From Alkalispirillum mobile (GTDB lineage: Bacteria; Pseudomonadota; Gammaproteobacteria; Nitrococcales; Halorhodospiraceae): a stretch of 64,000 nucleotides of DNA. The notes below the pieces were generated by a model. It had not been told where the DNA came from. It ran no database searches and worked only from the letters and a program-made list of their open reading frames with translations. The stretch covers positions 62,001-126,000 of the forward strand of contig NZ_RCDA01000003.1 of NCBI RefSeq assembly GCF_003664325.1, read 5' to 3'. Within the stretch, counting starts at the first letter, position 1. Every line of letters starts with the position of its first letter. Both the position numbers and the translations under genes were made by a program. Shown in pieces: positions 1 to 44,691 of the stretch.

Positions 1-375
1 CCCGGTGGGGCCGAAGGGGCCCGGCGGCTGGGCGAGGACGAACGGGTCAACACACTGCTGCGCAAGCTGGCAGACAGCGAGCGTTTCACCGCCGCCATTT
101 GCGCCGCCCCCAAGGTGCTGGCCGGTGCCGGCGTGCTGGAGGGCCGCCAGGCCACCGCCTTCCCGGGCGCACTGGACGACAGCCCAGGGGTGGAGTTACG
201 CGGCGGCGAGCCGGTGGTGGTGGATGGCAGCGTGGTCACCTCCCGCGGCCCGGGCACCGCCATGGACTTCGCCCTGCGGCTTATTGAGCTGTTGGACGGC
301 GAGCAGAAGGCCGTCGAGGTGGAGCAGGCGCTGCAGCGCCCGGCGGAGCACCGCCAGTACGTGCACGAGGCCTGA
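1..375 (+). CDS. DJ-1/PfpI family protein (YajL-like), 5'-truncated
   Basis: This is the C-terminal 124 codons of a DJ-1/PfpI superfamily protein, cut by the window edge. The visible part opens with PGGAEGA and carries the nucleophile elbow AAICAAP with the reactive cysteine at bases 100-102. It ends with the conserved segment TSRGPGTAMDFAL that is typical of YajL, ThiJ and DJ-1. Family members act as chaperones or are proposed protein/nucleotide deglycases and oxidative-stress proteins in the cytoplasm. The gene lies 49 bp upstream of a dehydrogenase on the same strand. The exact subfamily cannot be decided without the N-terminus. Confidence 0.85.
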   Translation, partial: PGGAEGARRLGEDERVNTLLRKLADSERFTAAICAAPKVLAGAGVLEGRQATAFPGALDDSPGVELRGGEPVVVDGSVVTSRGPGTAMDFALRLIELLDGEQKAVEVEQALQRPAEHRQYVHEA

Positions 376-424
376 CCCGCAGGCCCGTCGAACCCATTCC
401 CAACCAGAGCACAACGGAGTCGCA

Positions 425-1312
425 ATGAAAGCAGGCGTGATCGGACTGGGTGCCATGGGCGCCGGCATGGCCGCCAACCTGACCAAACAGGGGCTGTTGG
501 CGGCCGTATGGAACCGCACCTATGACAAGGCGGTGGATTTTGCCGGTCAGCACGGGGTGGCGGCGGCAGCGGATGCCCCCACCGTGGCGGCCCAGTGCGA
601 CGTGATCGTCACCTGCGTGTCGGCGGACGCCGACGTGCTGGAGGTAGTGGACGCCATGCTGCCCGAGCTGGGCGAGGGCAAGGTGGTGGTCGACACCTCC
701 ACCGTCAGCGCGGATACCGCCCGGGAGGCCGCCGAGCGGGTTGCAGCCACCGGCGCGCAGTTCCTGGACGCCCCGGTCTCCGGCGGCAAGGAGGGCGCCG
801 AGAAGGCCACCATGGTGATGATGGTGGGCGGCGACGAGGCCACCCTGGAGCGCGTGCGGCCGGTGCTCTCGGCCATCAGCCGCTCGGCCACCTACATGGG
901 GCCGTCGGGTGCCGGGCAGGTCACCAAGGCGGTCAACCAGATCATGGTGGCCGGCATCAACCAGGGGGTGACCGAGGCGCTGGCCTTCGGCCAGGCCCAG
1001 GGCCTGGACATGGACAAGGTCATCGAGGTGCTGAGCGGCGGCGCGGCCGGCAGCTGGTTCCTGCAGCACCGCGGTCCCACCATGGTGCGCGGGGTGTACG
1101 AGCCCGGCTTCAAGATGGCCCTTCACCGCAAGGACCTGGAGATCTGCCGCGCCATGCTGGAGAACATGGGCGTGGCCCTGCCGGTGGTGGAGATGACCCT
1201 GAAGCAGTATCGGCCGTTGATCGAAGGCGGCCACGGGGATGACGATATCTCCGGGCTGTACCGCAGCAAGCGGGCCATGTTCGAGAACGGCGGGAACAAG
1301 AAAAGCCTCTGA
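425..1312 (+). CDS. NAD(P)-dependent beta-hydroxyacid dehydrogenase (GarR/MmsB family)
   Basis: A 295-residue oxidoreductase of the 6-phosphogluconate/3-hydroxyisobutyrate dehydrogenase superfamily. It starts with the dinucleotide-binding motif GLGAMGAGMAANL, has the substrate-binding signature DAPVSGG, and the catalytic lysine is Lys168 in QVTKAVNQI. The C-terminal helical domain contains the KMALHRKD segment. Full-length relatives are 290-300 residues, so the protein is complete. Likely substrates are tartronate semialdehyde, 3-hydroxyisobutyrate or a short-chain semialdehyde; the sequence does not decide which. The ATG is 49 bp after the DJ-1 gene, so co-transcription is possible. Confidence 0.9.
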   Translation: MKAGVIGLGAMGAGMAANLTKQGLLAAVWNRTYDKAVDFAGQHGVAAAADAPTVAAQCDVIVTCVSADADVLEVVDAMLPELGEGKVVVDTSTVSADTAREAAERVAATGAQFLDAPVSGGKEGAEKATMVMMVGGDEATLERVRPVLSAISRSATYMGPSGAGQVTKAVNQIMVAGINQGVTEALAFGQAQGLDMDKVIEVLSGGAAGSWFLQHRGPTMVRGVYEPGFKMALHRKDLEICRAMLENMGVALPVVEMTLKQYRPLIEGGHGDDDISGLYRSKRAMFENGGNKKSL

Positions 1313-1322
1313 TCACGGCAGC

Positions 1323-1363
1323 GGCGCTGCTCCCCGGGTCTGGCCCGGGCGGGGAGCAGCGCC
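1323..1363. terminator. Hairpin between convergent genes
   Basis: A 13-bp perfect inverted repeat (GGCGCTGCTCCCC at 1323-1335, its complement at 1351-1363) with a smaller CCCG/CGGG stem inside it. It lies between the stops of the dehydrogenase (+) and clpB (-). There is no T-run on either strand, so it may work with Rho or only protect 3' ends. A bidirectional terminator role is inferred from position. Confidence 0.5.
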
Positions 1364-1393
1364 CAACCGCCCGGGCTGCCCAATGCCCATTTG

Positions 1394-3988
<2,595 letters not shown>

Positions 3989-4042
3989 GATGAATCCTCT
4001 TGCTCCGGGGTGTGAGTCACCCGTCAATGCCTTTGCAATAAC

Positions 4043-4072
4043 AGATGGGGGAGCGCGCCGGGCTTTTCAACC
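4043..4072 (-). promoter_or_regulatory. Sigma-32 (heat-shock) promoter of clpB
   Basis: Reading the minus strand, GGTTGAAA (4072-4065) is followed by a 14-nt spacer and CCCCATCT (4050-4043). The known RpoH consensus is CTTGAAA, 11-16 nt, CCCCATNT, so both elements are close to perfect. Transcription should begin near 4036, giving a leader of roughly 48 nt before the clpB ATG. The same 137-bp gap must also hold the divergent pgeF promoter. Confidence 0.87.
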
Positions 4073-4125
4073 ATGAGCGGTGCTGCGGCTTGGCGCCGGC
4101 GACGCAATGGCCGATGATGGACGGC

Positions 4126-4860
4126 ATGAGTGAACTGGATTTCATACGGCCCGACTGGCCGGCGCCGCCCGGAGTGCGGGCACTGACCACCACCCGCGCG
4201 GGCGGGGTCAGTCCACCCCCCTACGATAGCCTGAACCTGGGGGCCCACACCGGCGATGCGGCGGCTTGCGTTGCGGAAAACCGCCGCCGCCTCGCGTTGG
4301 CGGCGGACTTGCCGGGGGCGCCGGTATGGCTGAAGCAGGTGCACGGCACGGCCGTGGTGGCGGCGCACCGGGCGACCGGCGTGCCGGAGGCCGATGGCAG
4401 CGTCACGGACCGGCGGGGGCTGGTCTGCGCCATCCTGACCGCCGACTGCCTGCCGGTGCTGCTCTGCGACCAGGACGGGACGCGGGTGGCGGCACTGCAC
4501 GCCGGCTGGCGCGGCCTGGTCGACGGGATGCTGGAGTCCGGGGTCGCGGCGCTGGGCGGCCCGGAAGGCCTGATGGCGTGGCTGGGCCCGGCCATCGGCC
4601 CCGACGCCTTCCAGGTGGGGGCAGAGGTGCGCCAGGCCTTCCTGGCCCGGGATGAGGGGGCCGCCCCCTGTTTCCGCGAGGACCAGGAGGGCCGGTGGCG
4701 GGCCGACCTCTACGCCCTGGCCGCCCGCCGCCTGGCCACTGTCGGGGTCCACGCCGTGTACGGCGGTGACCACTGCACCCACACGGAGGCCGCTCGCTTC
4801 TACTCCTACCGCCGCGACGGCGAGACCGGGCGCATGGCCACGCTGATCTGGCTGGCGTGA
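4126..4860 (+). CDS. pgeF: Polyphenol oxidase/laccase-domain protein (YfiH, PgeF)
   Basis: A 244-residue YfiH/YlmD/FAMIN family protein. E. coli YfiH is described as peptidoglycan-editing factor PgeF, and relatives act as multifunctional purine nucleoside enzymes. Hallmarks are TTTRAGGVS, PYDSLNLGAH, WLKQVHG, TADCLPVLL, LHAGWRGL and a C-terminal FYSYRRDG; the histidines and cysteine in these motifs form the metal/active site. The start MSELDF aligns with E. coli MSKL; in-frame ATGs 3 and 4 codons earlier are possible alternatives. In E. coli this gene sits between rluD and clpB in the same orientation. Here it is inverted relative to clpB and separated from rluD by three genes. Confidence 0.9.
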   Translation: MSELDFIRPDWPAPPGVRALTTTRAGGVSPPPYDSLNLGAHTGDAAACVAENRRRLALAADLPGAPVWLKQVHGTAVVAAHRATGVPEADGSVTDRRGLVCAILTADCLPVLLCDQDGTRVAALHAGWRGLVDGMLESGVAALGGPEGLMAWLGPAIGPDAFQVGAEVRQAFLARDEGAAPCFREDQEGRWRADLYALAARRLATVGVHAVYGGDHCTHTEAARFYSYRRDGETGRMATLIWLA

Positions 4861-4942
4861 GGCCGCGACAGCGCCGCGGCACGGATTGACCCGGCTGGCG
4901 GCGCGGCGGATCATCAGGGCAAGGACCACAGGGAGTGCCACC

Positions 4943-5521
4943 ATGCGCCGATTCGTGCTCGACACCAGTGTTTTCACCAATCCCCACTGCGCCGTGCAGT
5001 TCGGCGAGGACCCGCTGGCCGGGGTGCAGACCTTCCTCCAGCTGGCCCGGCGCTCGCCGGCGGAGTTCTACATGCCGCTGTCGGTGTACGACGAGTTCCG
5101 GCGCATGCGCGACCTGGCGGAGATGGCAGCGGATTTCGAGACCGAGGTATGGGTCCGGTCGCCGCGCCGGTTCAGCATGAACATACCGGCGGAGATCCTC
5201 TACGAGTTCATCTACGAACTGCGCGGTCGCATCGACCGCGGCCTGCGCATCGCCGAGGAGCATACCCGCCAGGCGGGCGCCGCCACCGACATGCGCCCGG
5301 AGCTGATCGCCAGCCTGCGCGAGCGCTACCGCGAGGCCATGCGCAAGGGACTGGTGGACTCCCGTGAGGACGTGGATGCGGTGCTGCTGGCCATGGAACT
5401 GGACGCGGAGCTGGTCAGCGCCGACGAGGGCATGCGCAAACTGGGCAACCGGATGGGCGTGAAGCTGCTCACCGCGGACTACCTGCGGCGGGTGATGGAG
5501 AACCTGGCGGGCGGCTACTGA
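4943..5521 (+). CDS. RNA ligase partner protein, PIN-like nuclease domain
   Basis: A 192-residue protein matching the RNA ligase partner family, a PIN-fold family known to occur almost only in genomes that also carry a Pab1020-type RNA ligase. Candidate PIN acidic residues are Asp7 in LDTSVF, Glu51 in YDEF, Asp143/Asp145 in SREDVDAVLLA and Asp161 in VSADEG, so a metal-dependent RNase active site looks intact. The middle (about residues 70-135) is an all-helical insertion. The ATG has GGGAG 9 nt upstream. The matching ligase is 1.4 kb away, on the other side of an aminotransferase gene and on the opposite strand. The physiological RNA target is unknown; cleave-and-seal cooperation with the ligase is inference. 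Confidence 0.85.
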   Translation: MRRFVLDTSVFTNPHCAVQFGEDPLAGVQTFLQLARRSPAEFYMPLSVYDEFRRMRDLAEMAADFETEVWVRSPRRFSMNIPAEILYEFIYELRGRIDRGLRIAEEHTRQAGAATDMRPELIASLRERYREAMRKGLVDSREDVDAVLLAMELDAELVSADEGMRKLGNRMGVKLLTADYLRRVMENLAGGY

Positions 5522-5635
5522 CCCGGGTCGCCGCCGGCGGGTCACACCGCCGTGACAGACCGCCGCCACTGGCTACGCTCAGGGGTAGGGGGCGCGGGTG
5601 GCCCCCAGCAACGCGGGGGTGACGTAGTGACGGGA

Positions 5636-6952
5636 ATGAGTATCGATGAGCGGCGTTACGGCCATGCGCCGGAGATCCACCTCAACCTCAACGTGCGGGA
5701 CCTGGGCCAGTCCGCCACCCTGGCCATCAATGAGCGCAGCGCCGCGCTCGCGGCGGATGGGCGGCACGTCTTCCGCTTCGGGCTGGGGCAGTCGCCCTTT
5801 CCCATCCCGGCCGCGGTGGAGTCAGAGCTGAAGGCGAACGCCCACCAAAAGGACTACCTGCCGGTGAAGGGGCTGCGCAACCTGCGCGAGGCGGTGGCCG
5901 AGTACCACCGGCGCGGCCAGGGCGTGGAGGTCTCCGCCGAGGACGTGATGATCGGCCCCGGCTCCAAGGAGTTGATGTTCATCCTGCAGCTGGTCTATTA
6001 CGGCGACCTGGTCATCCCGACCCCCAGCTGGGTCTCCTACGCACCGCAGGCGCACATCATCGGACGCCAGATCCGCTGGGTGCAGACCCGATACCAGAAC
6101 AACTGGCGGCTGATGCCGGAGGACCTGGAAAGGCTCTGCGCGCGGGACCCCTCCCGTCCGCGCATCCTGATCCTCAATTACCCCAACAACCCCACCGGTG
6201 AGACCTACAGCGCGGACGAGTTGCAGGCGCTGGCGCAGGTGGCCCGCCGGTACCGGGTGGTGCTGCTCTCCGACGAGATCTACGGCGAGTTGCACCACCG
6301 CGGGCAGCACATGTCCGTGGCCCGCTTCTACCCCGAGGGCACCATCATCAGCAGCGGGCTGAGCAAGTGGTGCGGCGCCGGCGGCTGGCGGCTGGGTACT
6401 TTCGCCTTCCCGCGGGGGCTGCACTGGTTGCTGGAGGCGATGTCCGTGGTTGCCAGCGAGACCTATACCTCCACCAGCGCCCCCATACAGTTTGCCGCTG
6501 TACGCGCGTTCCAGGGCGGGCTGGAGATCGAGCAGTACCTGCAGCAGTCCCGGCGGGTGCTGCAGGCCCTGGGCCAGTACTGCTGGCGCCGGCTGGACGG
6601 GGCCGGGTTGCACACCCCCCGCCCGGCCGGGGGGTTCTACCTGTTCCCCGATTTCAGTCCGCTGCGCGAGCAATTGACTGCACGGGGCATTGGCACCGCC
6701 TCGCAGCTGTGCAACCAGCTGCTGGAGGACACCGGCGTGGCATTGCTGCCGGGGAGTGCCTTCGGCCGCCCGGACGAGGAGCTCTCCGCGCGGCTCGCCT
6801 ACGTGGATTTTGACGGTGCCAAGGTCCTGACCGCGGCGGGAGACGAGCCCGCCGGGCCGCTCTCCGATGAGTTCCTGACCCACTCCTGCCCAAACGTGGT
6901 CAATGGCATCGAGAGGCTGGTGCGCTGGGCGCGGGGCGAAGAGGGGGGCTGA
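5636..6952 (+). CDS. PLP-dependent class I/II aminotransferase
   Basis: A 438-residue fold-type I aminotransferase. It has the cofactor motifs GPGSKELMF, NYPNNPTGETY (Asn of the NPTG motif), SDEIYGEL (PLP-binding Asp and Tyr) and the Schiff-base lysine Lys244 in SSGLSKWCGAGGWRLG, followed by the arginine of the GWR motif. This resembles the aspartate/aromatic/alanine aminotransferase branch; the amino-acid partner cannot be read from the sequence. An in-frame GTG three codons before the chosen ATG is an alternative start. It follows the PIN gene by 114 bp on the same strand and converges with the RNA ligase, 12 bp between stops. Confidence 0.88.
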   Translation: MSIDERRYGHAPEIHLNLNVRDLGQSATLAINERSAALAADGRHVFRFGLGQSPFPIPAAVESELKANAHQKDYLPVKGLRNLREAVAEYHRRGQGVEVSAEDVMIGPGSKELMFILQLVYYGDLVIPTPSWVSYAPQAHIIGRQIRWVQTRYQNNWRLMPEDLERLCARDPSRPRILILNYPNNPTGETYSADELQALAQVARRYRVVLLSDEIYGELHHRGQHMSVARFYPEGTIISSGLSKWCGAGGWRLGTFAFPRGLHWLLEAMSVVASETYTSTSAPIQFAAVRAFQGGLEIEQYLQQSRRVLQALGQYCWRRLDGAGLHTPRPAGGFYLFPDFSPLREQLTARGIGTASQLCNQLLEDTGVALLPGSAFGRPDEELSARLAYVDFDGAKVLTAAGDEPAGPLSDEFLTHSCPNVVNGIERLVRWARGEEGG

Positions 6953-6964
6953 GGCCTGCGGCGC

Positions 6965-8065
6965 TCAGTCGAACTGGGCGCCACCGGAGAGGGCGTGGGC
7001 CAGGGTGCCGGTCATCCGCGGCAGGACCCGCTCGAACTCCAGCACCCAGTAGCCGTCCTGCTGGCGGCTGGGCTGGTAGAGGATCTTCACGTGCTGCGGG
7101 CCGCCGGTGGCCTCCAGGTGCGCGACGAAGTGGTCCAGGTTGCGCTGGTGGCGGAAGCGGCAGCGGTAGCGGTGGCCTACCCGGCCCACCTCCCGGCTGC
7201 GCTGCACCGAGCGGCCGAGCCCCTGCAGCAGGGCGCGCCCCAGTTCCCGCTCCAGGTCCGGGTCGTTGCCCCGGTGCTCGGCCTCGAACAGGGCCAGGCG
7301 CATCATGCGGTTGGTGAAGTACTCCGGCGGCAGGTCGAGAAGTGCGTCACTGACCAGGGCAATGTCGTTGATGTTGGAGCGGGCGGTGACGTACTTGCTG
7401 CGCGCGCCCTGCACCTCACCCTTGAATACCAGCCCCTCGCAGCCGGCCCGGTCCAGCGACAGGATTAGCTCGGTCAGCGCCTGCTGGTCCTGTGCCCGGT
7501 AGCGGCCGAAGACCCGCGCCACCGGCAGGCGGTAGCGCTCCGCCAGGCCCTGTTTTTCCGCCTGCGCAATGAAGCCGGGCTGCCCGTCCCGCATCAGGTC
7601 AAAGACGAACAGCGCCACGTCATGCGCCACGTGGGGCGGGCTGCCCTCCATGTAGGGGTTCTCCGGGCCGGCCAGCTCGGCGCAGGCGATCAGCCCCGGG
7701 TGCTCGTCGAACAGGGCCGGGTCGAGCAGTTCAGGGACGCGGTCGGTGCTGAAGGGGCAGAGAAAACCGCCCCGGCTGAAGGCCAGCAGCCGGCCCTCGT
7801 GGGCCACGATGCGGATATTGAAGCCGTCGATCTTCTCCTCGGCCCAGAAGGGTTCGTCGCCGTACTGCTTCTCCAGGCCGGTGGCCAGCGCCTGGATGCG
7901 GCCGATGGAGGGGTAGCCGGGTATGACCCGCCCGGTGTCCAGCCGGACGCTGCCCTTGGGCAGCCGGGCCACGCTGTCGTGCAGGCGGATGTAGCTCAGC
8001 CCCTCGAACTCGTGCCGGGTGGCCTTGCCCTTTTCCAGCGCCTGTTTCGCGGTCAGTGCGTCCAT
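6965..8065 (-). CDS. ATP-dependent RNA ligase, Pab1020 family
   Basis: A 366-residue nucleotidyltransferase. The ligase motif I lysine, which becomes adenylylated, is Lys78 in EEKIDGFN. Downstream blocks fit motifs III and IV (FVFDLM) and V (CEGLVFKGE), with the typical C-terminal dimerisation region around 250-366. The founding member, from Pyrococcus abyssi, circularises RNA and is homodimeric; most relatives are archaeal, with a scattered set in bacteria. Length fits the family (about 370-390). The gene is convergent with the aminotransferase and 45 bp downstream of rluD on the same strand, so it may be read from the rluD transcript. Biological substrate in bacteria is not established. Confidence 0.9.
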   Translation of the reverse strand: MDALTAKQALEKGKATRHEFEGLSYIRLHDSVARLPKGSVRLDTGRVIPGYPSIGRIQALATGLEKQYGDEPFWAEEKIDGFNIRIVAHEGRLLAFSRGGFLCPFSTDRVPELLDPALFDEHPGLIACAELAGPENPYMEGSPPHVAHDVALFVFDLMRDGQPGFIAQAEKQGLAERYRLPVARVFGRYRAQDQQALTELILSLDRAGCEGLVFKGEVQGARSKYVTARSNINDIALVSDALLDLPPEYFTNRMMRLALFEAEHRGNDPDLERELGRALLQGLGRSVQRSREVGRVGHRYRCRFRHQRNLDHFVAHLEATGGPQHVKILYQPSRQQDGYWVLEFERVLPRMTGTLAHALSGGAQFD

Positions 8066-8110
8066 GTCCCAAGCCTAGCGCGCCGGGGGCGGTCGCGGAA
8101 AGCGCGCGGG

Positions 8111-9052
8111 TCAGCCCTGCAGGCAGGCGATCAGCGCCTGCATGTCCTCCGGCATGGGGGCGTCCCAGCGCACCCGCTCCCCGCTGTCCGGGTGGTCCAG
8201 CGCCAGCCGGGTGGCGTGCAGCGCCTGGCGGTGGAAACCGCGCAGGGCCTGGCGCTGGGCCTCGGTGGCGCCGGGGGGCAGGCGCAGCCGGCCGCCGTAC
8301 ACCGGGTCGCCCACCAGCGGGTAGCCCACGTAGGCCATGTGCACCCGGATCTGGTGGGTGCGACCGGTCTCCAGGAAGCAGCGCAGCAGGGTGTGGGCGC
8401 GCAGACGGGTCTCCACCCGGTAGTGGGTGACCGCGGGACGGCCGCGCTCCACAACCGCCATGCGCTTGCGATCGCGGGGGTGGCGGCCGATGGGCGCCTC
8501 GACCGTGCCGCCCGCCACCGGGCAGCCGCTGACCAGCGCCAGGTACTCGCGGCTCACGCTGCGCGCCTGGAGCTGGGCCACCAGCGCGGTGTGGGCCGGC
8601 AGGCTGCGGGCCACCACCATCAGCCCGGAGGTGTCCTTGTCGAGCCGGTGGACGATGCCGGCCCGGGGCAGTTCCGCCAGCGTCGGGTCGTGGTGGAGCA
8701 GAGCGTTCTGCAGGGTGCCCTCGCGGTTGCCCGCGCCCGGGTGAACCACCAGCCCGGCCGGCTTGTCCACTACCAGCAGATGGGCGTCCTCGTGGAGAAT
8801 ACGCAGGGGGATGGGCTCGGCGGAGACCCGTTGTTCCTCCTCCAGCTCGGCGCGCAGCGTGACCTGCTGGCCGCTGGCCACCTTGTCCCGGGGCCGCGGC
8901 TGGCGACCGTCGACGGTGACCTCGCCCTGCCGGATCCACTGCTGGATGCGGCTGCGCGAGTAGTCCGGCAGCAGCGCTGCCAGTGCCTGGTCCAGCCGTT
9001 GGCCCGCTTGTGCGTCTTCGATCAGGATGTCGTGTTCTATTCGAGTGCCCAT
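8111..9052 (-). CDS. rluD: 23S rRNA pseudouridine synthase RluD
   Basis: A 313-residue RluA-family pseudouridine synthase expected to modify U1911, U1915 and U1917 in helix 69 of 23S rRNA. An N-terminal S4 RNA-binding domain (about residues 17-75; SRSRIQQWIRQGEVTVDG) precedes the catalytic domain with motif HRLDKDTSGL, which holds the catalytic aspartate. TGRTHQIRVHM and GDPVYGG are the other conserved blocks. The start MGTRIEHDIL aligns with the family; the longer in-frame extension runs into bamD leader sequence and was not used. rluD and bamD are divergent, as in E. coli, with 70 bp between their starts. Confidence 0.93.
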   Translation of the reverse strand: MGTRIEHDILIEDAQAGQRLDQALAALLPDYSRSRIQQWIRQGEVTVDGRQPRPRDKVASGQQVTLRAELEEEQRVSAEPIPLRILHEDAHLLVVDKPAGLVVHPGAGNREGTLQNALLHHDPTLAELPRAGIVHRLDKDTSGLMVVARSLPAHTALVAQLQARSVSREYLALVSGCPVAGGTVEAPIGRHPRDRKRMAVVERGRPAVTHYRVETRLRAHTLLRCFLETGRTHQIRVHMAYVGYPLVGDPVYGGRLRLPPGATEAQRQALRGFHRQALHATRLALDHPDSGERVRWDAPMPEDMQALIACLQG

Positions 9053-9122
9053 GATGCTTTCCCGCTGCGCCAAGGCGCGTAGAATAAGCGCTTTCCCGCT
9101 TGATGTCAGATTGAGGTCCCGT

Positions 9123-9890
9123 ATGTTGCCGAAGCGCTGGATATGGCTGCTAATCCTGATTGTGCCGCTGTTGCTGGCCAGCGGTTGCTCGTCCAATGGC
9201 CCTGACCGGGAGCCGGAGGCCCAGGAGACTGCGGAGGAGCTCTACCAGCGCGCCCGCAGGCAGTTGGCCAACGGCAACTACAGCATGGCCGTGGAGACCC
9301 TGGAGCGGTTGCAGGGCCGCTTCCCCTTCGGCCCTTACGCCACGCAGGCGCAGCTGGACATTATCTACGCCTACTACGAGGCGGGCGAGATGGAATCCGC
9401 CATCGCTGCCGCCGACCGCTTCATGCGGCTCTACCCGCGGGACCCCAACGTCGCTTACGCCCGCTACATGCGGGGCCTGGCCCATGCCAGCAGTGGCGAT
9501 GAGTTCTTTTCCCGACTGTTTAACCTGGACCGTAGCCTGCGTGACCCGCAGCCGTTGCGCCGGGCGTTCGTGGATTTCCGGGAGCTGATCCAGCGCCACC
9601 CGGACAGCGATTACGTGGAAGATGCCCAGGAGCGCATGCGCGAGATCCGTGACATCCTGGCCCGCCACGAGATCAATGTCGCCCGCTACTACCTGCGCCG
9701 CGATGCGCCGGTGGCGGCAGTGGGCCGCGCCCGCACGGTACTCGCCGATTACCAGGGCACCAGCGCCGTGGAGGAGGCGCTGGAGGTGCTGGTGGAGGCG
9801 TACGGCGTCCTGGAGATCGAGGACCTGCAGGCGGATGTGCGCCGGGTGATCGGCGAGAACTTCCCCGGCCACCCGCTGGCCGCCAACTAG
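9123..9890 (+). CDS. bamD: Outer-membrane assembly lipoprotein BamD
   Basis: A 255-residue lipoprotein of the BAM complex that inserts beta-barrel proteins into the outer membrane. The signal peptide ends in the lipobox LASGC with the lipidated Cys22. The rest is a row of TPR helices from about residue 40 (AEELYQRARRQLANGNY) to 245. The conserved block SGDEFFSRLFNLDRS matches the BamD family. Length is close to E. coli BamD (245). The gene is divergent from rluD, with a TAGAAT -10-like hexamer at 9080-9085. Its stop is only 3 bp from the stop of the convergent AbiTii gene. Confidence 0.96.
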   Translation: MLPKRWIWLLILIVPLLLASGCSSNGPDREPEAQETAEELYQRARRQLANGNYSMAVETLERLQGRFPFGPYATQAQLDIIYAYYEAGEMESAIAAADRFMRLYPRDPNVAYARYMRGLAHASSGDEFFSRLFNLDRSLRDPQPLRRAFVDFRELIQRHPDSDYVEDAQERMREIRDILARHEINVARYYLRRDAPVAAVGRARTVLADYQGTSAVEEALEVLVEAYGVLEIEDLQADVRRVIGENFPGHPLAAN

Positions 9891-9893
9891 GGG

Positions 9894-10574
9894 TCAGGCA
9901 CCGAGCAGGCGGGAGAAGAAACTGCCCGCCTGGCCGGCGGATTCGCTCTTCGCCTGTTGCTGCCGGGCCTCGGCGTGGGCGGCTTCGATCAGGCTGTCCA
10001 GCTCGTCGGTGATGGCCGCGGCAACGCTGCGGTCCTCCTTGCTGAACGAGGTGCCGCTGCCCTGCAGGCCCGCGGCCGCCAACCCCTCCGCCCAGCGCCT
10101 TATACCCAGGCGCAGGGTGGCCAGCAGCACTTGCAGGTTCCGGGCGGGCACCACCAGCGCCAGACGGGTGTCCAACCGGGTCTCCACCCGCAGCTCCAGT
10201 TGCCGCTCCTCGGGCAGTTCCACCGGGATATCCATCTGCCGCTTGCCCGCCTGGTGCATAGCGTTCGATTCCAGATCACGGATGCCGTCGCGGATTTCGA
10301 ACCGGGACAAGCGCTCGTTGACCGCGTCGGTGATCGGCGCTTCCACCCAACCCATGCCAGGCCGCCAGGCCACCAGTACGCCGCCGCTGGTCTGCCGGTA
10401 GGGCACCGGCACCGGGGCATCCTCCGGGTAGCCGTCGAGCTCTTGGCGCAGCCATTCCGATACGGGTTTCTGCCTCAGGGTGGAGGCGAGGAAGCGGGCC
10501 CTGGTGGCCAGGTCGCCCACGTACGTGCTGCTGTCCCTGGTCTCCTCGATCAGGGTTTCAATGACTGAACTCAC
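9894..10574 (-). CDS. AbiTii-domain protein
   Basis: A 226-residue protein whose N-terminal 70 residues match the AbiTii domain: helical VIETLIEETRD, then ARFLASTLRQKPVSEWL, then RQELDGYP with VPYR. The C-terminal part (LRLGIRRWAEGL...SFSKED) also fits the usual continuation seen in stand-alone AbiTii proteins. The domain was named from a predicted role in abortive infection and biological-conflict loci; its molecular function is not known. A GTG start is preferred because GGAGGGA lies just upstream of it; an ATG five codons earlier has only a weak ribosome site. It lies between two housekeeping genes, with no other defence gene nearby. Confidence 0.72.
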   Translation of the reverse strand: MSSVIETLIEETRDSSTYVGDLATRARFLASTLRQKPVSEWLRQELDGYPEDAPVPVPYRQTSGGVLVAWRPGMGWVEAPITDAVNERLSRFEIRDGIRDLESNAMHQAGKRQMDIPVELPEERQLELRVETRLDTRLALVVPARNLQVLLATLRLGIRRWAEGLAAAGLQGSGTSFSKEDRSVAAAITDELDSLIEAAHAEARQQQAKSESAGQAGSFFSRLLGA

Positions 10575-10810
10575 TGCCGGTCCCTCCATTGGCGCATCCC
10601 AGCCCGCCCGTCACGCGAGCGGTGGGCCGTCATGGCCGCTTATTATTCTGACTTCCTGGGTCACGGCAGCTCGGGCCCGGCGGCCAGGCTGCCTTTGTGA
10701 CTTATTCGTCGTTTCAGTCTATGCAGGAAACCGGAAGGGAAACAAGCGGCTGTGCAGTGAGGTAATTGGCAGGGGCCCAGCCCCTGGGAGGGGCCAGGCC
10801 GGCCGGGGGG

Positions 10811-11230
<420 letters not shown>

Positions 11231-12856
11231 TCAGGATTCTACCGGCACCCCTGGCCAGCCGGAACTGATGGGGTAGCGGCGGTCCCGGCCGAAGGCGCGC
11301 GGGGTTACCTTGGGGCCGGGCGCCGACTGGCGGCGCTTGTACTCGTTGCGCCGGACCAGCCGGGTGACTCTCGCCACGGTCTGCGGTTCGTGGCCGGCGG
11401 CGACGATCAGGGCCTCGCTCTGGTCGTGCTCCACGTACCTCTCAAGTATATCGTCGAGCACGGGGTAGGGCGGAAGGCTGTCCTCGTCCTTCTGGTCCGG
11501 GGCCAACTCGGCGGTGGGCGGGCGGTTGAACACCCCCTCCGGGAATGCCGGGTTCAGGCTATGCCGATAGCGGGCCAGACGGTAGGCCTCGGTCTTGTAC
11601 ACGTCCTTGAGCGGGGCGTAGCCCCCGCACATGTCGCCGTAGAGGGTGGCGTAGCCCACCGCCAGCTCGCTCTTGTTGCCACAGGCAATGACCATGCGGC
11701 CGGTCTTGTTGGACAGGGCCATCAGCAGGGTGCCGCGGATACGCGACTGCAGGTTCTCCTCGGTCACGTCCGGCGCCATCCCCTCAAAGCTGGGGGCCAG
11801 GGTGCTGAGGAAGCCCTGGAAGATCGGCTCAATGGAGGTGGTCTGGTAGCGGATGCCCAGCATGCGGGCGATGGCCTGGGCGTCATCCAGACTCATGGGA
11901 GCGGTGTAGCGGCTGGGCATCATCACCGCCTGCACCTTGTCGGCGCCCAGGGCGTCCACCGCCACGGCGGCGGCCAGCGCCGAGTCCAGCCCGCCGGAGA
12001 GGCCCAGCACCACCCCGGGAAAGCCGTTGCGACGCACGTAGTCACGCAGGCCGGTGACCAGCGCCTGGTAGACGGCGCCCTCCTCGGAGGGCTGCGTGCT
12101 CTGCTCACCGTTGACGTTCCCGTGTGCCGGGTCTACCTCCACCGTGCACAGCTCGCTCCGGAAGCGGGGGGCGCGGGCCTGAACGGTGCCGCAGGCGTCC
12201 ACCGCCACCGAGCCGCCGTCGTAGACCACCTCGTCGTGGCCGCCGGTCATGTTGACGTAGAGCATCGCCCGGTGGGTATCGAGGGCGCGCTCGCGCAGCA
12301 CCGCCTCGCGTTCCGCCTGCTTGCGCCGGTGGAAGGGGGAGGCGTTGAGGTTGACCACCAGGTCAGCGCCGGCGGCCACGGCCTCGCGGGCGGGGGTGGG
12401 CCACCAGATGTCCTCGCACAGGCTCAGCCCCACGCGGGTGCCGGCCACCTCCACTACGCAGGGGCGTGTGCCGGGCACGAAGTGGCGGCTGTCGTCGAAC
12501 ACGCTGTAGGTGGGCAGCTCCCGCTTGGCGTAGCGGGCGATGACCCGGCCGTCCTGAACCACCACGGCGGCGTTGTGCAGCCCGTCGCGGTCCCGCAGCG
12601 GCACCCCGACCACGGCGGTGATCCCCTGCGCGGCCTCCTGAATGGGCTGCAGGGCGTTCTCCGCCGCGTGGATGAAGTCGTCACGCAGCAGCAGGTCGTC
12701 CGGCGGGTAGCCGGTGACCGCCAGTTCCGGGAAGACCACCAGCTGGGCCTGTTCCTTGTCGCGGGCGGCCTCTATGGCCTGGACGATTCGCCGGGTGTTG
12801 CCCTCGATATCGCCCACCGGGCAGGCCAGCTGGGCCAGTGTGACGCGCAATGTCAT
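11231..12856 (-). CDS. nadE: Glutamine-dependent NAD+ synthetase
   Basis: A 541-residue two-domain enzyme that converts nicotinic acid adenine dinucleotide, ATP and glutamine to NAD+. The N-terminal nitrilase-fold glutaminase (about 1-265) has the catalytic triad Glu44 (FPELAVTGYPP), Lys111 (YAKRELP) and Cys147 (SLCEDIWWP). The C-terminal synthetase domain has the ATP-pyrophosphatase loop LSGGLDSALAA. Because the glutaminase is fused, the cell should not need free ammonia for this step. The ATG follows AGGAGAA. glnB lies directly downstream, linking nitrogen sensing to a glutamine-consuming NAD pathway. Confidence 0.96.
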   Translation of the reverse strand: MTLRVTLAQLACPVGDIEGNTRRIVQAIEAARDKEQAQLVVFPELAVTGYPPDDLLLRDDFIHAAENALQPIQEAAQGITAVVGVPLRDRDGLHNAAVVVQDGRVIARYAKRELPTYSVFDDSRHFVPGTRPCVVEVAGTRVGLSLCEDIWWPTPAREAVAAGADLVVNLNASPFHRRKQAEREAVLRERALDTHRAMLYVNMTGGHDEVVYDGGSVAVDACGTVQARAPRFRSELCTVEVDPAHGNVNGEQSTQPSEEGAVYQALVTGLRDYVRRNGFPGVVLGLSGGLDSALAAAVAVDALGADKVQAVMMPSRYTAPMSLDDAQAIARMLGIRYQTTSIEPIFQGFLSTLAPSFEGMAPDVTEENLQSRIRGTLLMALSNKTGRMVIACGNKSELAVGYATLYGDMCGGYAPLKDVYKTEAYRLARYRHSLNPAFPEGVFNRPPTAELAPDQKDEDSLPPYPVLDDILERYVEHDQSEALIVAAGHEPQTVARVTRLVRRNEYKRRQSAPGPKVTPRAFGRDRRYPISSGWPGVPVES

Positions 12857-12891
12857 GTCGCGGTTCTCCTGCGTTGGTGGCCAGACGTGAG

Positions 12892-12925
12892 AACGGCCCG
12901 TCCCGCGGGGCGGGATCGGGCCGTT
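12892..12925 (-). terminator. Two-part hairpin downstream of sucD
   Basis: A compound hairpin: a 9-bp outer stem (AACGGCCCG / CGGGCCGTT) enclosing a 6-bp inner stem (TCCCGC / GCGGGA). It lies 40 bp beyond the sucD stop and just upstream of the nadE leader, so it probably ends sucCD transcription before nadE. The T-run after it is weak. Confidence 0.6.
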
Positions 12926-12964
12926 TTCTGGCTGGCAATGGCTTGGGCCATCGCAGCGGGGTGA

Positions 12965-13837
12965 TCAGCCTTTGAACAGCTCGTTGAGCTTCTGGCCGAT
13001 CTCCGCCGGGGAGCGCACGGTGGCGACACCGGATTTCTCCAGGGCGGCGAACTTGTCGTCCGCGGTGCCCTTGCCACCGGCAATGATGGCGCCGGCGTGA
13101 CCCATGCGCTTGCCCGGAGGTGCGGTGACACCGGCGATGTAGGCCACCACCGGCTTGTCCACGTTCTGCTGGATGTACTCCGCGGCCTCTTCCTCGGCGG
13201 TACCGCCGATCTCGCCCACCATGACGATGCCCTTGGTCTGCGGGTCGGCCTGGAACAGCTCCAGGGCGTCGATGAAGGACATGCCGTGGATCGGGTCACC
13301 ACCGATGCCGATGCAGGTGGACTGGCCGAGACCGATGTCGGTGGTCTGCTTGACCGCCTCGTAGGTCAGGGTGCCCGAGCGGGAGACGATGCCGATGGAA
13401 CCGGCCTTGTGGATGTGGCCGGGCATGATGCCGATCTTGCACTCGCCGGGGGTGATGACGCCCGGGCAGTTGGGGCCGATCAGGCGGCAGTCGTACTGCG
13501 CCAGGGCGGCCTTCACCTTGAGCATGTCCAGCACCGGGATGCCCTCGGTGATGCAGGCGATGACCTTGATGCCGGCATCGGCCGCTTCCAGGATGGCGTC
13601 GGCGGCGAAGGCGGCCGGCACGTAGATCATGCTGGCGTCGGCGCCGGTCTCCTGGACGGCATCTTCCACGGTGTTGAACACCGGGCGGTCCAGGTGCTTC
13701 TGGCCGCCGCGGCCGGGGGTCACGCCACCGACCACGTTGGTGCCGTAGGCGATGGCCTGCTCGGCGTGGAAGGTGCCCTGCTTGCCGGTGAAGCCCTGGA
13801 CGATGACCTTCGTGTTCTTGTCTACAAGTACGCTCAT
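12965..13837 (-). CDS. sucD: Succinyl-CoA synthetase, alpha subunit
   Basis: A 290-residue subunit that carries the phosphohistidine intermediate of succinate-CoA ligase in the TCA cycle. The CoA-binding Rossmann domain begins [11 protein letters not shown]. The phosphorylated residue is His247 in RMGHAGAI, and the GGKGTADDK segment follows. Length agrees with E. coli SucD (289). It follows sucC by 29 bp on the same strand, the universal sucCD order. Unlike in E. coli, sucAB is not adjacent. Confidence 0.97.
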
Positions 13838-13866
13838 GTCGATTGGATCCTCTTCTCCGGCGTGGT

Positions 13867-15042
<1,176 letters not shown>

Positions 15043-44614: not shown

Positions 44615-44691
44615 GGGCCTGTAGCTCAGTTGGTTAGAGCAGTCGACTCATAATCGATAGGTCGCAGGTTCAAGTCCTGCCGGGCCCACCA
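44615..44691 (+). tRNA. tRNA-Ile (anticodon CAU, lysidine type)
   Basis: A complete 77-nt cloverleaf with encoded CCA. The acceptor stem is GGGCCTG/CGGGCCC with one G-U pair, the D-arm is GCTC/GAGC, the anticodon stem is GTCGA/TCGAT and the loop is CTCATAA, so the anticodon is CAT. The T-arm is GCAGG/CCTGC with loop TTCAAGT. The anticodon arm CGACTCATAATCG and the GGTCGC segment match E. coli ileX (isoleucine, C34 modified to lysidine by TilS), not elongator tRNA-Met. The assignment to Ile rests on this resemblance. Confidence 0.85.

Follow-up and report, generated by a model that had tools for sequence, protein, structure and literature searches.

Why should a bacterium that possesses the ribozyme form of ribonuclease P (RNase P) also keep a protein-only, RNase P-like nuclease, and why should the gene of this nuclease face that of an RNA ligase? 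The question is raised by a locus of Alkalispirillum mobile (order Nitrococcales), situated at 4943-8065 of a stretch of 64,000 nucleotides (contig NZ_RCDA01000003.1, positions 62,001 to 126,000 of the forward strand), which is called the window here. A preliminary description, made from the sequence alone, had placed there a Pab1020-type ATP-dependent RNA ligase and a PIN nuclease partner which together would cut and reseal RNA. The open reading frame (ORF) listing and translation bear out its coordinates for the two genes:

4943..5521, + strand: HARP, a minimal protein-only RNase P-like PIN nuclease of 192 amino acids (PF08745, TIGR03875 and NF003344 above cut-off; PDB 7og5; conserved residues)
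6965..8065, - strand: Pab1020/Rnl3-type ATP-dependent RNA ligase of 366 amino acids with K78 as nucleophile and a Lig_C domain (PF09414, PF18330, TIGR01209; 3qwu/2vug; motif residues)

Identity of the two proteins

The PIN partner can be named as HARP (homolog of Aquifex RNase P) and the ligase as Rnl3, both identities being practically certain. Over its full length the PIN protein matches the profiles PF08745 (PIN_5; 219 bits, curated cut-off 27 bits), TIGR03875 ('RNA ligase partner protein'; 232 bits, curated cut-off 95.3 bits) and NF003344 (301 bits), and 7/7 PDB sequences matching it carry the name 'RNA-free ribonuclease P'. Chance is excluded, since the E-values of these full-length models range from 5e-65 (PF08745) to 3e-90 (NF003344) and the same pair is found again in other genomes. 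The best PDB match, 7og5, is the HARP of Halorhodospira halophila (PMC8266387); the HARP of G021, a genome of the same order, agrees letter for letter with the 7og5 chain throughout their alignment and is around 66% identical to the HARP of the window.

Concerning the active site, the candidate PIN residues that had been described as intact (Asp7, Glu51, Asp143/145 and Asp161) are all present (D7, E51, D143, D145, D161), and D139, together with R126 and R130, has to be added to them. In the Aquifex protein Aq880, D7, D138, D142 and D161 are indispensable, R129A gave no detected cleavage of precursor tRNA (pre-tRNA) and R125A little, and the spike helix of HARP is proposed to grip the tRNA elbow (PMC8266387). 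These catalytic aspartates and the spike-helix residues R125/R129 are matched in the window by D7, D139, D143, D161, R126 and R130, the equivalences being drawn by position (HARP numbering shifts by +1 after a one-residue gap relative to the PDB relative 8kd9; Aq880 was not aligned by name). D139, R126 and R130 are invariant in an alignment of ten HARP sequences. Among the 79 distinct HARP loci obtained by a contig scan (the best 80 of 85 relatives were kept), D139, D143, D161, R126 and R130 are kept in 79/79 and D7 in 73/79, the remainder being five gaps and one E. In one genome (G001; L027/L029) HARP is split over two reading frames beside an intact ligase, as a pseudogene or an assembly error.

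The ligase, whose classification as Pab1020-type is upheld, reaches 292.9 bits with TIGR01209 (cut-off 136.9 bits), 67.9 with PF09414 and 65.5 with PF18330 in the profile search, and its PDB relatives are headed by 3qwu and 2vug (PAB1020). The nucleotidyltransferase motif residues K78, D80, G81, E130, E210 and K224 are present, so that the KxDG lysine is found together with the Lig_C domain. K78, rightly placed in EEKIDGFN by the preliminary description, is kept in 59/60 ligases (the remaining one has a gap), D80 in 54/60 (five N, one gap) and K224 in 60/60.

Co-occurrence of HARP and Rnl3

The two families had been said to co-occur across genomes, and our surveys confirm this for the order of the window (54 genomes), where HARP is found in 25 genomes and the ligase in 27: the ligase is present in 25/25 HARP genomes vs 2/29 HARP-free ones (Fisher p 4e-13; p-values within the order overstate the significance, since the genomes are related to one another). 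Both genomes that have the ligase without HARP (G028, G029) are 81%-complete drafts. In these 54 genomes the association with HARP is looser for RtcB, another RNA ligase (14/25 vs 4/29, p 0.0014). More telling, the association is seen without physical linkage too: in one genus of the order (g2) the genes are unlinked, yet occur in the same 6/9 genomes. Four of these are drafts with HARP and ligase on different contigs; in the two single-contig genomes (G020 and G021) the genes lie 2.4 and 1.4 Mb apart, respectively (around 0.4 and 1.3 Mb if the contigs are circular). Three g2 drafts (94, 83 and 77% complete) have neither gene. Furthermore, the divergence of HARP rises with that of the ligase (r 0.87, 27 non-redundant pairs, 0/2000 permutations), a value obtained with no control protein.

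A further survey, of 50 named HARP genomes, 48 of them bacterial (from 50 of the 79 loci), found the ligase in 43/50; those without it are four Aquificota, one Nitrospiraceae and two WOR-3 genomes, and two other WOR-3 genomes, which have RNase P parts, keep it. This survey apparently overlaps that of the order (same match places), and the counts are not additive. Among 136 Aquificota genomes, 70 had a match, and both genes are present in 56/70 (one of the ligases being a fragment); in 17 of these 56 the genes are unlinked or lie on split draft contigs. In the published survey, the ligase was present in 665 of 751 HARP genomes (PMC12153264).

Arrangement of the genes

In the window, HARP and ligase are convergent (tail-to-tail), 1.44 kb apart, and stand on both sides of an aminotransferase gene (5636-6952, + strand), as had been described; they thus lie on opposite strands within ≤5 kb, as in the published pairs. 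The gene-neighbourhood survey that had been suggested shows how general this orientation is: in 60/79 HARP loci, which come from both Bacteria and Archaea, the fetched flank includes a ligase; 59 of these 60 pairs are tail-to-tail, one (L133) is co-directional and none is divergent. The other 19/79 loci have no ligase in the flank, several of these flanks being short. Grouped into lineages (70% single linkage, hand count), the 60 linked loci form 14 groups, 13 of them convergent and one co-directional, with one Micrarchaeota and one Thermococcus locus among them. In 11/60 linked loci the two frames overlap at their 3' ends; gaps of 0.3-1.1 kb are seen in L104, L109, L122 and L128. Within the order, 19/25 HARP genomes have linked genes, 19/19 of them convergent, and the same holds for 39/39 Aquificota pairs within ≤5 kb. 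According to PMC12153264 the layout is 'typically bidirectional', and linkage (≤5 kb) is tighter in bacteria, with 127/164 bacterial vs 163/501 archaeal pairs. A shared promoter cannot explain such a layout, because conserved convergence is not an operon.

ORF clustering around the 79 HARP loci detected no third conserved neighbour. Three clusters occur in at least four of the 22 HARP lineage groups, namely HARP, the ligase and a third, overlapping with the HARP/ligase region but encoded on the opposite strand; the latter was taken as an antisense artefact. The clustering is crude (ORFs of at least 90 amino acids, an overlap filter, 1116 ORFs kept; HARP itself clustered in only 19/22 groups and 52/79 loci), such that it could overlook a third gene of small size or weak conservation. 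The aminotransferase was rejected as a partner: no homologue of it was found between HARP and ligase in any of the 60 linked loci, and in G037, whose pair is closest to that of the window among the ten aligned for each protein, an unrelated DRL/SAF-domain oxidoreductase occupies its place. In the simplest reading, it looks like loose cargo.

RNase P background

The genome of A. mobile contains both parts of the ribozyme RNase P (rnpB 340.6 bits, searched with Rfam RF00010 only, as in all genomes; rnpA 100.3 bits), and because both are present, HARP is probably accessory in this bacterium. Within the order, rnpA is found in 52/54 genomes and rnpB in 49/54 (48 over cut-off); among the HARP genomes, 25/25 have rnpA and 23/25 an rnpB match, G015 and G018 having none and G008 fragments under cut-off. 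The idea that tRNA 5' maturation depends chiefly on HARP in this organism, for which the intact active-site residues and spike-helix arginines of HARP could be adduced, is thus very improbable.

Among the 50 named HARP genomes, rnpA was found in 36 and rnpB in 35 (34 over cut-off), the rnpB search being run here with stricter filters, by which weak matches were lost. Concerning the 48 bacteria, 39/39 with an rnpA or rnpB match have the ligase, and 2/9 without either do (Fisher p 5e-7); the latter two are both titled Aquifex. The strong form of this pattern, that HARP as sole RNase P loses the ligase, has to be rejected, because 56/70 Aquificota carry both genes, Aquificaceae are published as devoid of ribozyme RNase P (PMC12153264), and neither rnpA nor rnpB was found in six Aquificota examined. 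What survives is a one-way statement: ribozyme RNase P was detected in none of those among the 48 HARP bacteria that lack the ligase. In Archaea, Haloferax volcanii breaks it.

Possible function of the pair

There is, in our judgement, about an even chance that HARP and Rnl3 form an accessory two-enzyme module for RNA ends and act on a shared, tRNA-like RNA. HARP, a PIN metallonuclease with oligomeric relatives, would cleave pre-tRNAs or tRNA-like RNAs in the manner of RNase P, so that a 5'-phosphate remains; Rnl3 would take over this 5' end and either join it to a nearby 3'-hydroxyl, by which the RNA is circularised or resealed, or adenylate it. The ribozyme would meanwhile perform the housekeeping tRNA 5' maturation, and the pair would have a side role in the salvage or circularisation of RNA, perhaps linked to stress. 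What we infer here is a common RNA for both enzymes, its resemblance to tRNA, and the sequence of cutting before joining. RNase P-type cleavage leaves a 5'-phosphate. Since an archaeal Rnl links RNA ends bearing a 5'-phosphate and a 3'-hydroxyl (PMC5599603), the order of cutting and sealing is chemically sensible, and it comes near to a published hypothesis, even if it is still deduced. M. thermoautotrophicus Rnl is also able to trim the 3'-terminal adenosine (PMC5599603).

As to the RNA, the preliminary description had considered the target in bacteria as undescribed; this has to be corrected insofar as the known substrate of HARP is pre-tRNA, and it stands insofar as no target was found for bacteria that keep the ribozyme. 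In Archaea, maturation and circularisation of C/D box small RNAs (sRNAs) by the pair has been proposed, with HARP maturing the 5' ends for circularisation by Rnl3 (PMC12153264), and circularisation is supported for the archaeal ligase (PMC12153264; PMC9014305), whose recombinant form circularises C/D box sRNAs only with an intact terminal stem that brings the ends together (PMC9014305). For the bacterium studied here this explanation is scarcely credible: fibrillarin is over the cut-off in 0/54 genomes of the order, for which the C/D-box model is therefore unfit, and the genome of A. mobile has no match at all. Sub-threshold fragments of around 22 bits occur in G007 and G017; among the control genomes 4/14 pass the cut-off, and the five that match are four archaea and Thermotoga. 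A tRNA-like target is suggested, since tRNA and rRNA are common to both domains and the C/D-box model does not fit here.

A more specific version, which we consider improbable, is that HARP and Rnl3 turn tRNAs without CCA into circles, HARP making the 5'-phosphate and Rnl3 closing the acceptor stem; pre-tRNAs with 3'-CCA are cut around ten-fold slower by the HARP of Hydrogenobacter (as cited in PMC12153264). If this holds, the circular form might keep tRNA safe from nucleases, stored or quarantined, in cells exposed to salt, alkali or heat, and it would give Bacteria and Archaea a common target where C/D box RNAs are not an option.

Several points weigh against a common cut-and-seal module. 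The convergent genes share no operon. Recombinant HARPs of A. ehrlichii, H. halophila, T. nitratireducens and M. infernorum showed no pre-tRNA processing (PMC12153264); for H. halophila this conflicts with PMC8266387, according to which its HARP processes pre-tRNA, and a review of 2024 cautions about failures of HARP folding (PMC10941002). In a T. kodakarensis ligase knockout, tRNA and rRNA intermediates are still circular (PMC9014305). HARP also occurs without the ligase, as in the control genomes of Haloferax volcanii (no Rnl3) and Thermus composti (a HARP match, no Rnl3 match; four HARP controls were included in the survey of the order, one of them under cut-off), and in 13/70 Aquificota no ligase was detected beside HARP, with 1/70 having the ligase alone. 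Finally, an Rfam scan of positions 1-14000 of the window gave zero matches.

Among the alternatives, the one to be taken most seriously, though still rather unlikely, is that the enzymes do not cooperate directly, HARP serving as a reserve RNase P or one that withstands stress, Rnl3 as a general repair ligase, and both being retained on account of the salty, alkaline or hot places in which the hosts live. The habitats of the hosts fit (PMC12153264, where non-cooperation is raised too), HARP knockouts in two archaea had no growth phenotype (PMC12153264), and the genes are unlinked in g2 and in the 17 Aquificota genomes mentioned above, draft contig splits included; against it speak RtcB, which follows HARP less closely than Rnl3 does, and the tail-to-tail position in 59/60 linked loci. 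Improbable, too, is a stress response in which pre-tRNA leaders receive a 5'-adenylate from Rnl3 and are afterwards cut off, adenylate included, by HARP. This proposal of PMC12153264 is based on the Rnl3 of Palaeococcus, in which adenylation is strong and ligation weak, and the present data favour it no more than sealing.

Even less probable is a toxin-antitoxin system in which HARP would be a VapC-like RNase toxin and Rnl3 the repair antidote. That PIN cuts leave ligatable ends counts for it, but a type II system of the VapBC kind is a two-gene co-directional operon, whereas the pair is convergent here and in 59/60 linked loci, with one co-directional. HARP does belong to a VapC-like PIN group, and the idea has been discussed (PMC12153264); however, HARP is found without a detected ligase in 7/50 sampled genomes and in 13/70 Aquificota (overlapping samples), T. 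kodakarensis survives knockout of its ligase (PMC12153264; PMC9014305), and neither HARP nor the ligase has any PADLOC match at E 0.01.

Neighbouring genes

The remaining features of the locus are as follows:

5519..5544, + strand: possible terminator-like hairpin at the HARP stop codon, with the inverted repeat TGACCCG/CGGGTCA (spotted by eye)
5636..6952, + strand: class I/II aminotransferase between the pair (PF00155), judged unrelated cargo

In Halorhodospira-like loci (L092, L093, L094, L138), YfiH, RluD, BamD and GlnB are found together, with HARP 5-6 kb beyond GlnB; ClpB precedes the YfiH group in L092 and L093, and L145 shows a like arrangement without YfiH in the stretch. In the window, YfiH and RluD enclose HARP, the aminotransferase and the ligase. 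Concerning the whole region 4045-9890, YfiH (Cu-oxidase_4 / laccase fold) is inverted compared to the order ClpB-YfiH-RluD-BamD of Halorhodospira-like genomes, a local rearrangement beside the pair. BamD also lies within around 10 kb of HARP in two loci titled Zetaproteobacteria and Mariprofundaceae (L106 and L121, the latter also with RluD and YfiH); these are the same genes as the neighbours of HARP in the family of the window, by chance or by old linkage. Between BamD and GlnB, the window contains a gene for an AbiTii-family protein (9894-10589, - strand; PF18864 74 bits, PADLOC AbiTii 82 bits); the BamD-GlnB spacing is smaller in Halorhodospira-like genomes, and the gene may be a defence-gene insertion.

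The sole tRNA of the window is situated at 44615, and of 60/79 HARP loci scanned for tRNAs, seven have any. A tRNA-Gly(CCC) around 0.3-0.9 kb upstream of HARP in L099, L104 and L112 (two titled Methylothermaceae, one Methylohalobius) was considered as a nearby RNA target and rejected, the three loci being read as the synteny of one lineage. L099 also has a tmRNA on the far side of the ligase.

Comparison with known systems

The overall interpretation of the preliminary description is supported in part: pairing, active sites and co-occurrence hold, whereas the expression 'rarely studied' does not, the partner being HARP, with solved structures, and the link between HARP and Rnl3 having been published in 2025. 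The pairing as such is therefore already known (Seshadri & Gopalan, mBio 2025, PMC12153264). Apart from that paper, the literature searched (titles and beginnings of abstracts) yielded none that joins HARP and an RNA ligase, and none that treats HARP, protein-only RNase P and circular RNA together. New here are the order-wide co-occurrence including an unlinked genus, the measure of tail-to-tail orientation, the lack of a detected third conserved neighbour, the aminotransferase as apparent cargo, rnpA and rnpB beside HARP, the fibrillarin result, and the ligase/ribozyme pattern in 48 bacteria. The tight bond between HARP and ligase is a strong clue to the reason for which a second, protein-only RNase P is maintained in some cells along with the ribozyme; the fibrillarin result speaks against the C/D-box model for this order and points to a target found across Bacteria and Archaea, e.g., a tRNA-like RNA. 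Gammaproteobacteria with both genes beside an intact ribozyme RNase P are suggested as systems for study.

Compared to known HARPs (PDB 7og5 of H. halophila, also 8kd9, 7f3e and 8ssf), the protein of the window matches over its whole length, with the same active-site aspartates and spike-helix arginines; in Aquifex, however, HARP is the only RNase P (PMC12153264), whereas here it stands beside rnpA and rnpB. Equally, the ligase matches Rnl3/Pab1020 (TIGR01209; PDB 2vug, 3qwu and 5d1o) over its full length, including Lig_C and the nucleotidyltransferase motifs, whereas the in vivo targets reported for archaeal Rnl3, C/D box sRNAs, are unexpected in this order. The locus is most similar to the pairs of Seshadri & Gopalan (PMC12153264), which comprise the same two families on opposite strands in similar types of hosts; the differences are that those pairs are termed 'bidirectional', whereas a tail-to-tail orientation was measured here, and that the pair of the window is split by an aminotransferase gene.

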